IMG/VR virus record: IMGVR_UViG_3300024518_005059
Coordinates: 1 to 43,095 of that record
Reading direction: 5' to 3' (one strand)
DNA length: 43,095 nucleotides
Source: a virus
A program made the position numbers and the translations under genes. The notes beneath the pieces are model-generated. The model was not told the origin of the DNA and made no database searches. It saw only the letters and a program-made list of their open reading frames with translations. Position 1 is the stretch's first letter. Each line of letters begins with the position of its first letter. Below, piece after piece: positions 1 through 43,095 of the stretch.

Positions 1-526
1 AAAATTAATTCAGGTCTCATCTGGATTTTTACGCAACACAAAAGCGGGCCTCTCAGTCTATACGGGCACCGAAAAACTCATAGCCGCAGTAGGATTTGTG
101 GAAGCCCAACAGGGCTCTCCTGTCCTGATCGGGTGCAACTACACGCCGGAAATAATCAGACTAAAAGATGCTCTGAAAGGCTACACGGTAGAAACTATAG
201 CAGGCGGGATGGCCGCTAAAAAAACAAAGGAAATAATAGAAAAATGGAATCAGAAAAAAATAGACGTACTCATCTGTCAGTGCGCCGCAGTCGCGTACGG
301 CCTAAACATGCAGTACGGAGGGCACACGCTCCTATGGTTCAGCCCCACTCTGGACCCAGAGCTGTATGTTCAATTTAACGGACGACTAGATCGCCCAGGA
401 CAAACAGAGCAGGTGGAGATACACCATCTAGTAATGAGAAAAAGCAACGATAAGATGTGGTACGAGCGTCTCACCACGAAAACATCCATTCAGGATGCCC
501 TTTTATCCTACCTTTCAGGAGAATAA
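1..526 (+). CDS. SNF2-family helicase, C-terminal part (continues from 42299..43095)
   Basis: The reading frame is open from base 2, so this is a partial gene. It carries the second RecA-like lobe of an SF2/SNF2 ATPase: a segment reading GLNMQYGGHTLLWF (motif V region), then QFNGRLDRPGQ, the classic motif VI with the arginine finger. The N-terminal lobe with Walker A and DEXX box is at the other end of the window, and joining the ends gives a protein of about 438-440 residues, normal for small phage SNF2 helicases. These proteins usually sit in phage replication modules beside VRR-NUC nucleases, as here, and are thought to remodel DNA or protein-DNA complexes. The stop lies 3 bases before the CsrA-like gene, so the two are probably co-transcribed. 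Confidence 0.93.
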   Translation, partial: KLIQVSSGFLRNTKAGLSVYTGTEKLIAAVGFVEAQQGSPVLIGCNYTPEIIRLKDALKGYTVETIAGGMAAKKTKEIIEKWNQKKIDVLICQCAAVAYGLNMQYGGHTLLWFSPTLDPELYVQFNGRLDRPGQTEQVEIHHLVMRKSNDKMWYERLTTKTSIQDALLSYLSGE

Positions 527-529
527 AAA

Positions 530-946
530 ATGGAATACCGGAAACATTACAGCCTTTTGCTGCTCGGACGAAATCCTGGGCAGTCAATATATGTAGGGGA
601 ACATTTGAAAATCTCATACGAGAGCATAAACACGGAGACGAACGTCATCCATTTGCAGGCCTTGTACAAAAATTTAAAAGAGGCCCCGCTATCTGGCGGC
701 CACATGTACATCCGTGACCATTCGAAGTTTGAGCTTTTTCACATTCACCTTGACCTGGAAAATGATATAGAAATTTTGAAAAATGTCAGAATGTTTTACC
801 ACTCGCGCAGCCCCGGAGGGCGACAAGTAATACTAGGATTTGATGCTCCGTCCTCTGTAGGGATATGGCGGGACAACGTGAAAAATAGAACGCCAAAATG
901 GGAACGAGATATGCACGAGGTCGCACCATCCTCTTATGTATTTTAA
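530..946 (+). CDS. CsrA-like RNA-binding protein with a large internal insertion
   Basis: A 138-residue protein. Residues 9-34 match the first half of CsrA (LLLLGRNPGQSIYVG against the LILTRRxGExxxIG pattern), and residues 98-121 match the second half (RQVILGFDAPSSVGIWRDNV against NQVRIGVNAPxxVxVHREEI). The RNA-contacting positions known in CsrA appear kept: Leu12 and Arg14 correspond to L4 and R6, and Arg114 corresponds to R44. Between the halves, where CsrA has a short beta2-beta3 turn, lie about 63 extra residues (35-97) of unknown fold. Ordinary CsrA is about 61 residues. Pseudomonas RsmN also has an insertion at this place, but a much smaller one. It follows the helicase by 3 bases and precedes a promoter. 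A role in post-transcriptional control of host or phage mRNAs is inferred from the family. Confidence 0.72.
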   Translation: MEYRKHYSLLLLGRNPGQSIYVGEHLKISYESINTETNVIHLQALYKNLKEAPLSGGHMYIRDHSKFELFHIHLDLENDIEILKNVRMFYHSRSPGGRQVILGFDAPSSVGIWRDNVKNRTPKWERDMHEVAPSSYVF

Positions 947-3548: not shown

Positions 3549-4193
3549 ATGGCAAGTGCTGCATTGATGGGTGTAAAAAAACACGCCGAATGGGAAAATG
3601 AGCTTCGACAAAAAATAAAAGAAGCCGACATAAATCATATCCGTTCAATGCTGAGAGATATTCGGGGAAGGGATCGATCAAAATATCTCCTGTGGTCCAT
3701 ACAGGCATATTTGAAAGAGGCCCCATGCAATTATGGGGCACTGGGAAAGAGTCCGGTATGCCCTCATGGTCCGAACTCTTCATATTACCCTTCTTGCCAA
3801 GGCCTGTGCAGAGGTCTTGTGGTGAAAGAAATGGCAAAAAGATCAAGGGGAAAAAAAAATATTAAAAAATGCGCGGAGCTGGCCGTTTTGGCCGGGCAGA
3901 TAGGGATTTTGGATCTCCTTGTTGAGTTAGGATATTCGTTGGGCGACATGCCTTTTAAAACATTCTTGGCCGCCTGTGAGCTGGACAGGGTAAATAGAAC
4001 ATCTTCCATTTCTGACCTTCTAAAGAAAAAAGGAAAAAAGACAGTGTGTGTCTGCCTCTCCGGAGGGTACGATTTTGAGGATGAAGATGGGAAAGAGATA
4101 TCAGTGTACGAGGGAGAGGGTACTTATACCGTGTATTTCCGCCGGTCAGACCCGGACCCAATTAACACAAAGGTAGAAAAAAATGCAAACTAA
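3549..4193 (+). CDS. Ankyrin-like protein with a cysteine-rich insert
   Basis: A 214-residue protein following a GGGAGG site. Residues about 15-58 are helical and ankyrin-like. Residues about 59-88 form a Cys/Pro/Tyr-rich loop with four cysteines (in CNYGALG, VCPHG and SCQGLC), which might bind metal. Residues about 105-150 form another ankyrin-like unit (AELAVLAGQIGILDLLVELG). The C-terminus is acidic, then ends YTVYFRRSDPD. The Cys-rich loop coincides with a 7-base inverted repeat in the DNA (3720-3739). Function unknown. Confidence 0.68.
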   Translation: MASAALMGVKKHAEWENELRQKIKEADINHIRSMLRDIRGRDRSKYLLWSIQAYLKEAPCNYGALGKSPVCPHGPNSSYYPSCQGLCRGLVVKEMAKRSRGKKNIKKCAELAVLAGQIGILDLLVELGYSLGDMPFKTFLAACELDRVNRTSSISDLLKKKGKKTVCVCLSGGYDFEDEDGKEISVYEGEGTYTVYFRRSDPDPINTKVEKNAN

Positions 4194-4965
4194 ACAACAA
4201 GACCTAGACTTCGCCTTAGGAGATGCCATATTAGATGGGGATGTGAGCGCAGCGCGGAAAGCACTAGAAAACGGCGCGAACATAAACTCACTATGTTGCG
4301 TGTCTGGCAGCCAGGCATGTGAGCTCACCCCGCTGTACTGGGCCGTTTCGTTCCAGCTGTATGAATGCGCTGAGATGCTGTGCCAGTATTGCCCAGATGC
4401 AAACTTAGGAGAGGATCTCCCTATAGTCTGCGCGTGTCAAGCCGGTGATATACGAATGCTTAAGATCCTGCTGTTGAGCGGCATAACAATAGATGTCGAA
4501 GCAGACAATAATCTGGCCCTCTACGAGGCCCTCCGTAGCGGGTGCCTGGATATCGTCAGGCTGCTGGTGAGTCATGGAGCAGACATGCGGGAGCAGGAGC
4601 GTCCAATTTTAGGAGCTGCGGTAGAGTGCCTGGTTGACTCGGAGTTGGAGGATCTAGGACACGCCGCACTGATGTACGCTATAGAATCTGGATCGAGGGC
4701 GGACATACGGAGCAGTTCCGCGTTGAGGTCCGCGACAGGCCATCGCTGCTATGACGATTTGATATTTTTAATGATTCTCCTGGGGGGGGACCCACTTAGC
4801 CTTAAGTGCCGTGCCCTCTTTGATGTGGCGGAAGCTGGGAATGGATACATGACGCAAGCCATGCTGGCATATGTGGGCACCAAAATAAGCAACAAAAACA
4901 AGGGCCTAGTGTTAAAAGCGCTGGGAGACGCGAAAAGACGAAAAGCGCAGGAGAGGAAAAAATAA
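4183..4965 (+). CDS. Ankyrin-repeat protein
   Basis: A 260-residue protein overlapping the previous gene by 11 bases. It begins with a tag (QQDLDFALGDAI) shared by several proteins here. Clear ankyrin repeats follow: residues about 12-35 (DGDVSAARKALENGANIN), 49-72 (TPLYWAVSFQLYECAEML), 80-100 (PIVCACQAGDIRMLKILL), 112-135 (ALYEALRSGCLDIVRLLVSH), then more degenerate ones. The last 25 residues are basic. There is no signal peptide or membrane segment. Ankyrin arrays bind proteins; in intracellular bacteria and their phages they often act on host factors. It is a close paralogue of the next gene. Confidence 0.85.
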   Translation: MQTKQQDLDFALGDAILDGDVSAARKALENGANINSLCCVSGSQACELTPLYWAVSFQLYECAEMLCQYCPDANLGEDLPIVCACQAGDIRMLKILLLSGITIDVEADNNLALYEALRSGCLDIVRLLVSHGADMREQERPILGAAVECLVDSELEDLGHAALMYAIESGSRADIRSSSALRSATGHRCYDDLIFLMILLGGDPLSLKCRALFDVAEAGNGYMTQAMLAYVGTKISNKNKGLVLKALGDAKRRKAQERKK

Positions 4966-5780
4966 TGAACAAACAACAAGACCTAGACTACGCCCTAGGA
5001 GATGCGATTAGGGAGGGAAAAATAGGAAAAGTGACAGGAGCTATAAAAAATGGAGCCGGTATAAATTCCGTTTTTTGCTCCTCCTTGGGAAGCTGTTATG
5101 AGAGGACGCCGCTATACTGGGCTGTGTATGAGGAAGAGCATGAGATAGCCCAGATGCTATGCGACTATGGTGCCGACGCTACCATAGGGGAAGATCTCCC
5201 TCTCGTCTGTGCTGCCAAAAATGGAGATATTCGAATGATTAATATTCTCCTTAATAGCGACATAAAAATAGATGTGACGGCAGACAATAATGAGGCTCTG
5301 TATGAGGCTCTAGACAACGGCTATATGGATGTCGCGCAACTACTGGTAAAGCATGGGGCCGATATGTGCGATCAGTCTAGCTCTATGTTAGACGCAGCTA
5401 TCTGCTGGTCATCTGAGACCGAATCCGACGAGTTAGTACTCTACGCAATAGAGGCTGGTGCACGAGCAGACGTTCAAAAAAGCGTGGCACTACGATCTGC
5501 GGTAAAAAATAACATGACAAATAGCATGATTCTTTTGCTAATTATTTTCGGCGGAGATCCGCTGGGCAATGATTCGGAAGCTCTCTTTACGGCAGCTTCC
5601 GCTGGCCGCGAAAGCATAACCCGAGCCATGCTAGAGCATGTAAAAGACCGTATAAGCGGAAAACACAAAGATTTAGTTTTGAAAACTCTAGGAGACACAA
5701 AGAGACGTAATGACCGACAGCAAACAATCAAAGAGCAAAATACCACAATGGAAGGCTTTAAGTCCGAGACGCTGCATTAA
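4965..5780 (+). CDS. Ankyrin-repeat protein, paralogue of the previous gene
   Basis: A 271-residue protein whose ATG shares one base with the preceding TAA. It has the same plan as its neighbour: tag QQDLDYALGDAI, then repeats such as NGAGIN, TPLYWAVYEEEHEIAQML, PLVCAAKNGDIRMINILL and ALYEALDNGYMDVAQLLVKH, and a basic C-terminal tail. Gene duplication is plain from the collinear residues. The two copies diverge most in the third quarter, where binding specificity could differ. Co-translated with the 4183 gene. Confidence 0.85.
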   Translation: MNKQQDLDYALGDAIREGKIGKVTGAIKNGAGINSVFCSSLGSCYERTPLYWAVYEEEHEIAQMLCDYGADATIGEDLPLVCAAKNGDIRMINILLNSDIKIDVTADNNEALYEALDNGYMDVAQLLVKHGADMCDQSSSMLDAAICWSSETESDELVLYAIEAGARADVQKSVALRSAVKNNMTNSMILLLIIFGGDPLGNDSEALFTAASAGRESITRAMLEHVKDRISGKHKDLVLKTLGDTKRRNDRQQTIKEQNTTMEGFKSETLH

Positions 5781-5805
5781 AATTCAAAATTCAGGAGAAT
5801 GAAAA

Positions 5806-5880
5806 ATGAAAACTAAACAACAAGAACTAGACTACGCCCTAAGGGTCTCACTGATAGGGGGCCGACATGGACAGGGATAG
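5806..5880 (+). pseudogene. Truncated ankyrin-gene remnant, 24 codons
   Basis: After a good AGGAG site an ATG opens a frame that begins with the family tag (KQQELDYAL) and ends in a TAG after 24 codons. It matches the first codons of the 4183 and 4965 genes. Its end overlaps the start of the next gene by 14 bases. It is either the 5' stump of a deleted ankyrin gene or a leader peptide that feeds ribosomes into the 5867 gene. Confidence 0.6.
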
Positions 5881-6295
5881 CAGGATGAACTGCCAGGAGC
5901 TCATCAATCATAGGCTAGGACACTACATAGCTATAGGCGATGTCGCCCACTGTCGGAGACTGATCGAAGAGTACGGAGCAGATGTGAATACGCCGAACTG
6001 CGTCAGATATGTTGACAGGTCGTTTCGGCCTCTAGAGCTGGCCATAGAGGAGGGAGACCTACGCATAGTTGACCTATTGCTCTTATTGGGAGCTGACCCT
6101 GAGCTAGGGTGCCCGTGTCCACTAGACAGAGCTAAATCTGTCCTAGAAGAGAGCCCGCCCCAATCTGAGCAGAAGAGTATATACGACTCGATAGAGAGAG
6201 CGGCAAGAGAGAGGGCCCCAGATCCTCCACTGACAAACGAAGAACGCAACGCTATTTTGTCACTGCTGAAGACGCCGCCCCCCTATACTGTCTAA
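5867..6295 (+). CDS. Short ankyrin-repeat protein
   Basis: A 142-residue protein. The ATG at 5867 follows AGGGGG, but comparison with the paralogues suggests that the ATG at 5885 (MNCQELINHRLG, matching the family tag) may be the true start. Two ankyrin repeats are visible: GDVAHCRRLIEEYGADVNT and PLELAIEEGDLRIVDLLLLL. The C-terminus (PPLTNEERNAILSLLK) reappears in the next small gene, so that tail is a separate module. Confidence 0.75.
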   Translation: MDRDSRMNCQELINHRLGHYIAIGDVAHCRRLIEEYGADVNTPNCVRYVDRSFRPLELAIEEGDLRIVDLLLLLGADPELGCPCPLDRAKSVLEESPPQSEQKSIYDSIERAARERAPDPPLTNEERNAILSLLKTPPPYTV

Positions 6296-41707: not shown

Positions 41708-42321
41708 AAGAAGCAATCTTAGCTATGTACCCGCATGTGCACTCGGGAGGTGGTCCGGAAAAAAAACAAAGACGCCCAAGGAAAGACGCGCAAGCAGACA
41801 TCATAAAAAAAGACAGTGCTACGGCGCACAGAGACGCTCAACTACGGTCGTTTGTCCGCATCGAAAAAAGAAGAGATCTCGACATCTCACTAGTGGAGGC
41901 GTGCGAAGGCATAAAAGGGAAAAGTTCATACTGCGACGGCCTCACCGTCAGTGAGGTCTACCATATCTGCGCAGGTTCTCCTTTTATTCGTCAGCTTTTT
42001 TCTTCAGATTCAGAAAAAGTAGGAATGTATAGTCTGATTCAAAAACTGGCAGATGCAGACCGCCGAACAGAACGCACGGTTAGCATTTCAGCTTTTAACC
42101 GAAACATAATTGACTATGGTGCCAAGGAGTGCGTGTCCAATCCCCCGGAATGCATACTGCACCTAGCCCAGAGAGCCCGAAATGAATACCCAGGGGCAAA
42201 AAGAAAAAAAATTTCGGGAATTTACAAATTATACCTTAATTCTCGCAAGATACGCAATTTATTTAAAGGGCCTCAACAGAACAGTAAAGGGAAAAACCAT
42301 GAAAAAAATAGAGCTGTCTAA
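41704..42321 (+). CDS. Hypothetical basic protein between nuclease and helicase
   Basis: A 205-residue protein starting inside the previous gene (ATGA-type overlap of 4 bases) and ending 23 bases into the helicase gene. A basic N-terminal region (KKQRRPRKDAQADIIKKD) is followed by helices and a basic C-terminus. Phages often encode a small transcription or packaging factor here, but I see no recognisable motif. DNA binding is possible from the charge. Confidence 0.62.
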   Translation: MKEAILAMYPHVHSGGGPEKKQRRPRKDAQADIIKKDSATAHRDAQLRSFVRIEKRRDLDISLVEACEGIKGKSSYCDGLTVSEVYHICAGSPFIRQLFSSDSEKVGMYSLIQKLADADRRTERTVSISAFNRNIIDYGAKECVSNPPECILHLAQRARNEYPGAKRKKISGIYKLYLNSRKIRNLFKGPQQNSKGKNHEKNRAV

Positions 42322-43095
42322 GCACCAGAAAATCATCCACGACGAGATGTTGAAGCATCCTAGGTACGCTGCGTTCCTGCCGACAGGAGCCGGCAAAACC
42401 CTGATGACACTAGAGGTCCTAAAAAATATAAATAAGAAAACCCTGATAGTCGCCCCCTCGCACGTCATACAGTCCACATGGGCACAGGAGATAAAAAAAT
42501 GGGGCTATGACATTACAATGGCTGACCTTAGAGGGAAAGTTTTAAACGACACTATACCTCCGGCAGATATCTACATCACGACGCCTGAAACATTAATAGG
42601 CGCAAAATTCCAAACGATATACCCGCGCCTAAAGTGTGAAGCAATCGTCCTAGATGAGAGTTCAAAATTTAAAAATGTCAGCTCGAAAAGAACGAAATGG
42701 ATGCGTAAAGAGTGCGGGAATTTCAAGCATTGCTATCTCTTGAGCGCAACACCGGCCCCCAGAAGTCTAGAGAATTTATGGCCTCAGTTTTATTTCGTTG
42801 ATTTTGGCGAACGTCTCGAAAGGACGATAACCAACTACAGACGTATGTATTTTATGCAGGTCGGTCCAGTGGAATATTCAAAATATGAAATCCTGCCTGG
42901 GGCCTCGGAAAAAATCTACCTGAAAATAGAAGACAGGGCAAAATCTGTGAAGGTGAACAATGGGAAGGTTCTTCACAGTGACGTAATCGTTCTCCCAACT
43001 CCGAAAACGCTCAGTTTGATTTCAGATACAAAAAATGGATGCGTAAAATTAGACCCGGAAAATAAAATCCACATCCACAATATAGCCACAAAATT
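42299..43095 (+). CDS. SNF2-family helicase, N-terminal part (continues at 1..526)
   Basis: A partial gene running off the window, 265 complete codons. Walker A PTGAGKT (28-34), motif Ia IVAPSHVIQSTW, DEXX box VLDESS (118-122 region), motif III LLSATPAP (147-154) define an SF2 helicase of the small phage SNF2 type. The last two bases (TT) plus the first base of the window complete a Leu codon, and the frame goes on into 2..526. Confidence 0.93.
   Translation, partial: MKKIELSKHQKIIHDEMLKHPRYAAFLPTGAGKTLMTLEVLKNINKKTLIVAPSHVIQSTWAQEIKKWGYDITMADLRGKVLNDTIPPADIYITTPETLIGAKFQTIYPRLKCEAIVLDESSKFKNVSSKRTKWMRKECGNFKHCYLLSATPAPRSLENLWPQFYFVDFGERLERTITNYRRMYFMQVGPVEYSKYEILPGASEKIYLKIEDRAKSVKVNNGKVLHSDVIVLPTPKTLSLISDTKNGCVKLDPENKIHIHNIATK

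Follow-up and report, generated by a model that had tools for sequence, protein, structure and literature searches.

Does a viral protein in which CsrA-like sequence appears as two separated halves represent one CsrA split by an insert, or some other arrangement of the fold? The window analysed here, all 43,095 nucleotides of IMG/VR record IMGVR_UViG_3300024518_005059, carries such a gene on its plus strand at positions 530 to 946, encoding 138 amino acids. Normal CsrA is a homodimer of ~60-residue subunits with two identical RNA-binding sites. Our initial annotation described the window gene as a CsrA split by 63 residues. A combination of the ATG-initiated open reading frame, Pfam, tblastn and profile HMM comparisons instead makes it very probable that the gene encodes two CsrA copies joined head to tail within a single polypeptide, forming a candidate single-chain CsrA pseudo-dimer.

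The open reading frame starts 3 bp past the stop codon of a helicase gene and is preceded by an AGGAG ribosome site. The Pfam CsrA model (PF02599) matches the whole protein above its cut-off of 27 bits (30.4 bits, E 3.8e-7), and the similarity, which is far above chance, resides in two stretches, residues 10-34 and 97-120. A PHROG CsrA-like regulator also matches (E 2.3e-6). The equivalents of CsrA L4, R6 and R44 are L12, R14 and R114, while R7 is replaced by Asn15. The front and back halves of CsrA and their RNA-binding Leu/Arg and Arg positions, as reported initially, are thus present, and the search that had been proposed with the two halves joined gives a single stretch of 37.8 bits (E 1.8e-9). 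Judged by these similarities, the window protein is a CsrA homologue.

The repeated nature of the protein becomes apparent from its relatives. We compared eight proteins, namely that of the window and seven relatives or look-alikes: three from phage or prophage loci in IMG/VR (L024, L035 and L040), one from Pseudomonas phage vsMR (L029) and three from plasmids of Xanthomonas/Stenotrophomonas. The closest relative, L024 (101 amino acids), was recovered by a scan with the window protein aligned to real CsrA sequences, and matches window residues 8-133 with 29% identity (tblastn, E 1e-8). Pfam CsrA matches the L024 open reading frame twice, at model positions 1-42 and then 14-50. Positions 14-42 are present twice, and L024 therefore is a tandem rather than a split CsrA. 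Two CsrA stretches each also occur in L035 (109 amino acids), which lies on the same 87.5-kb record as L024, in L040 (100 amino acids), which was reached via a neighbouring integrase, and in L029 (92 amino acids), which was found on re-examining CsrA matches in named phages.

A tblastn search with the L029 protein led to Xanthomonas plasmids, among them pXCV183, and to a single Stenotrophomonas plasmid, with full-length matches in 14 plasmid records, where the product is annotated as carbon storage regulator. Copy 1 of the plasmid proteins matches CsrA positions 1-34 and copy 2 positions 6-58, the latter copy being 48% identical to E. coli CsrA. The middles of the three plasmid proteins match CsrA by themselves, with scores reached by 0, 0 and 5 of 1000 shuffles. 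On Xanthomonas citri plasmid plB (L144:2501-3134), the two-copy gene is located directly beside an ordinary csrA.

An HMM built from the other seven proteins finds the window protein as one domain spanning residues 10-121 with 35.1 bits, compared to 6.8 bits for the best of 500 shuffles. The phage members are only 21-36% identical to one another, and a tree of the eight proteins resolves nothing outside the plasmid group and does not support a single common duplication. When copy 1 and copy 2 of the same protein are compared pairwise, they show no significant similarity, so the duplication is visible only via CsrA as an intermediary. In the relatives it is demonstrated by these repeated matches to the CsrA model. 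For the window protein we infer it from homology and from a structural model of moderate confidence, because its middle segment alone is not significantly CsrA-like (8% of shuffles reach its score).

AlphaFold models of the window protein and of L024 both contain nine strands in a 4+5 arrangement. For the window protein, modelled with moderate confidence (pLDDT 61) from an alignment of four sequences, the strands are residues 8-14, 19-22, 26-34 and 39-47, then 67-75, 80-83, 86-93, 100-106 and 110-113; helices of at least four residues are not predicted in the intervening segment. Those of L024 (pLDDT 72) are residues 2-6, 11-14, 18-26 and 31-36, then 41-46, 50-53, 57-64, 67-73 and 80-82. Such an order is as expected if a complete copy 2 came after a CsrA copy 1 that lacks strand 5. 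The break between the two CsrA halves that we had initially described is real, as the Pfam stretches do lie apart. It had been placed at the beta2-beta3 turn and in canonical numbering falls at the turn between strands 3 and 4, because three predicted strands (8-14, 19-22 and 26-34) precede it.

Combining the predicted strands with residue mapping, we assign residues 8-47 (positions 551 to 670, plus strand) to strands 1-4 of copy 1, including L12 and R14. Residues 48-66 (671 to 727, plus strand) would form a linker in which strand 5 of copy 1 is absent or degenerate, a low-confidence reading given that residues 55-64 have pLDDT values below 50; the sequence HMYIRD at residues 58-63 could be a remnant of that strand. 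Residues 67-120 (728 to 889, plus strand), which include the second Pfam stretch at 97-120, are assigned to strands 1'-5' of copy 2. The 63-residue segment thus most likely consists of strand 4 of copy 1, the linker and strands 1-3 of copy 2. Most relatives have only a short linker between strand 4 and strand 1', and that of the window protein is the longest.

A Foldseek search of BFVD with the L024 model returned as top match a 114-residue protein of a phage that bears the name carbon storage regulator (E 6.7e-6, TM 0.70 over 96 columns), along with 12 more phage proteins of 81-201 amino acids (E ≤ 4.1e-3, probability 1.00). A0A6J5RUQ1, A0A2I7QSD7 and A0A7S5US24 are among these BFVD matches. 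Nothing significant was found in the PDB, which was searched chain by chain, because each solved CsrA chain represents only half of the fold.

An RNA site of CsrA brings together strand 1 from one monomer and strand 5 from its partner, with L4 and R44 being critical (PMC7652899). Across the eight proteins, which represent about six separate lines since three are close plasmid relatives, the corresponding residues are divided between the copies. Copy 1 retains L4 in 7 of 8 and R6 in 7 of 8 and never has A36-P37, while copy 2 carries A36-P37, V/I40, V/I42 and R44 in all eight (A106-P107, V110, I112 and R114 in the window) and lacks R6 in every case. Since a site combines strand 1 with the opposite strand 5, the protein is best read as a pseudo-dimer in which, by analogy with the known CsrA dimer and from the pattern of conserved residues, one RNA site is probably intact. 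Copy 1 would supply strand 1 (L12, R14) and copy 2 strand 5 to rebuild this site, and the opposite site, formed by strand 1 of copy 2 and strand 5 of copy 1, would be without its key residues.

Three other explanations must be weighed against this arrangement. The window protein could be one CsrA fold interrupted at the turn between strands 3 and 4 by a domain of ~63 residues that adds a new surface, which resembles our initial proposal of an extra binding surface. Its two Pfam stretches are complementary, barely overlapping on the model (positions 2-32, then 28-51), hhalign prefers an alignment in which the window profile covers CsrA once, in two separated parts, and the insignificant score of the middle segment and the very low model confidence at residues 55-64 point the same way. 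However, the CsrA matches of L024 and of the plasmid proteins overlap broadly, and CsrA-like strand spacing continues through the segment in the AlphaFold models of both the window protein and L024. An inserted domain is therefore not the best reading, as the segment belongs to a second CsrA copy in the relatives, and we regard it as quite unlikely.

A two-copy protein might alternatively be covalent and bivalent, with both RNA sites working, if copy 1 of the window protein keeps its strand 5 in the form of HMYIRD. The length of the window linker, which has a beta-like stretch with Arg62 following A52-P53, and the presence of an Arg at the R7 position in copy 2 of the plasmid proteins would fit this possibility, and R62 could be a remnant of R44, in which case the second site would not be fully lost. 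Yet R6 of copy 2 and A36-P37 of copy 1 have disappeared from all eight proteins, the window model has no confident strand at residues 58-63, and the linkers of most relatives offer little length between strands 4 and 1', making two working sites unlikely. Least probable, in our judgement, is a degenerate CsrA that has given up RNA binding altogether and acts by contacting proteins such as host CsrA or the helicase. The high divergence among the phage members and the visible loss of one site agree with such decay, but L4 and R6 in copy 1 and A36-P37, V40, V42 and R44 in copy 2 are kept where little else is common.

The fusion of two CsrA copies with a single intact site thus remains our preferred reading. 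Directly upstream of the tandem gene lies the C-terminal part of an SNF2-type helicase (positions 2 to 526, plus strand; 146 bits to PHROG DNA helicase), and the N-terminal part of the same helicase is found at the other end of the record (42302 to 43095, plus strand). The two join in frame, so that the 43,095-base record closes through the helicase gene, as a circular genome would. The phage has genes for tail sheath, baseplate, terminase, primase and endolysin, which identify it as contractile-tailed. A replication-recombination block ends with the helicase and then the two-copy CsrA gene in the window, L024 and L040. Downstream of the CsrA gene, all three prophage loci (L024, L035 and L040) have an excisionase-like gene and a tyrosine integrase; none of 18 other records with related integrases has a CsrA.

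Several additional features of these genomes were observed. The record that holds L024 and L035 contains two related integrase cassettes, at about 34-41 kb and 81-87 kb, whose integrases are 51% identical and each of which has its own divergent two-copy CsrA. A small conserved gene (71-77 amino acids, 44% identical) is located shortly before the two-copy CsrA at L024:2761-2994 and L035:654-869, and its L024 copy has no Pfam match. In the window, the proteins encoded at 1666-2199 and 2192-2758 end in RNA_pol_A_CTD (Pfam, 41.1 and 51.6 bits), and a fusion to this RNA polymerase alpha C-terminal domain is unusual for a phage. Two proteins encoded within 977-2761, one starting at 977 and the other at 2192, resemble paralogues in sharing the start T.AEM..EKNYSLFY, and the leader AATCAAACGGAGGATG precedes the start codon of both genes. 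Three adjacent genes at 4183-6295 encode ankyrin-repeat proteins, which are uncommon in phages.

Other searches for members of this group gave no additions. The window protein as a single query yielded no relative in a scan of IMG/VR and no real match by tblastn in phages, and an HMM scan of the retrieved stretches, including helicase-related loci, detected no further member among them. CsrA is present in 0 of 17 terminase-related records, and the record with a relative of the helicase (L019) is without a relative of the window protein. Scans of genome contigs found solely an ordinary CsrA, located next to flagellin in a Clostridium MAG. A match in Xanthomonas phage LucasX is weak and lies inside a 410-residue protein that is not CsrA.

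If one site is intact, the protein would be a monomeric binder of single GGA hairpins that is unable to bridge two sites and has no need to form mixed dimers with host CsrA. As the product of a gene that closes the replication operon of the phage, it may control translation of phage mRNAs, compete with host CsrA, or do both. We offer this role as a monovalent regulator or competitor tentatively, as RNA binding, valency and biological role are all hypotheses drawn from sequence. Overriding of host CsrA or regulation of phage mRNAs had been suggested initially with reference to GGA in the phage ribosome sites, and both are possible. ANGGA occurs at 27 of 61 assumed gene starts in the window, with two or more copies at only 3. 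Shine-Dalgarno sequences contain GGA, which makes its presence in ribosome sites uninformative, and counting ANGGA around the assumed starts provided no lead. An Rfam search of the window had no match, and hence found no known Csr/Rsm sponge RNA.

More broadly, it is a nearly even possibility that the two-copy proteins of phages, prophages and plasmids constitute a natural class of single-chain, one-site CsrA that binds GGA without bridging or mixing with host CsrA, serving as monovalent competitors or private regulators. If so, a natural CsrA with one site in one chain would be a ready tool for testing the importance of bridging between two GGA motifs, and a mobile element could enter the Csr network of its host without subunit mixing. 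Within the open-access literature, to which our search was directed, GST-fused CsrA was the only tandem or fused CsrA found, and the two-copy form is apparently undescribed there. Such proteins pass for a CsrA with an insert or receive a plain carbon storage regulator annotation.

Occurrence of CsrA on phages and plasmids was already known, with phage CsrA reported in 2020 (PMC7366521). Ordinary phage representatives, such as those of Escherichia phage Pondi, Providencia phage PSTCR8lys and BcepMigl, are single-copy proteins of ~60-67 amino acids. The window protein resembles CsrA, RsmA and RsmE (PF02599) in sequence profile, strand order and the residues L4, R6, V40, V42, R44 and A36-P37. However, these proteins have a single copy of about 60 residues (~61) with five strands and a helix, whereas the window protein has 138 residues, nine predicted strands, Asn in place of R7, probably two copies per chain and, as far as its residues indicate, one site lost. 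RsmN (RsmF) of Pseudomonas aeruginosa likewise belongs to the relatives of CsrA in which additional residues separate core strands, and its chain topology is altered (PMC3791407). As the initial annotation held, its insert is smaller: RsmN is a two-site homodimer of 71 residues in which strand 2 is separated from strand 3 by one helix of 16 residues (PMC3791407) and which has no C-terminal helix. The window protein differs in being interrupted between strands 3 and 4, in having no helical insert of this kind and, most likely, in carrying a second copy. A functional parallel may be the engineered CsrA heterodimer in which one subunit carries R44A (Mercante 2009, described in PMC7652899), used to test how far bridging between two GGA sites matters. 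It also has a CsrA-like scaffold with a single functional RNA site, a property here predicted from sequence. For that heterodimer, full repression of glgC is reported to have needed both sites (PMC7652899). The heterodimer is a laboratory form, whereas the two-copy protein would be its natural covalent counterpart.
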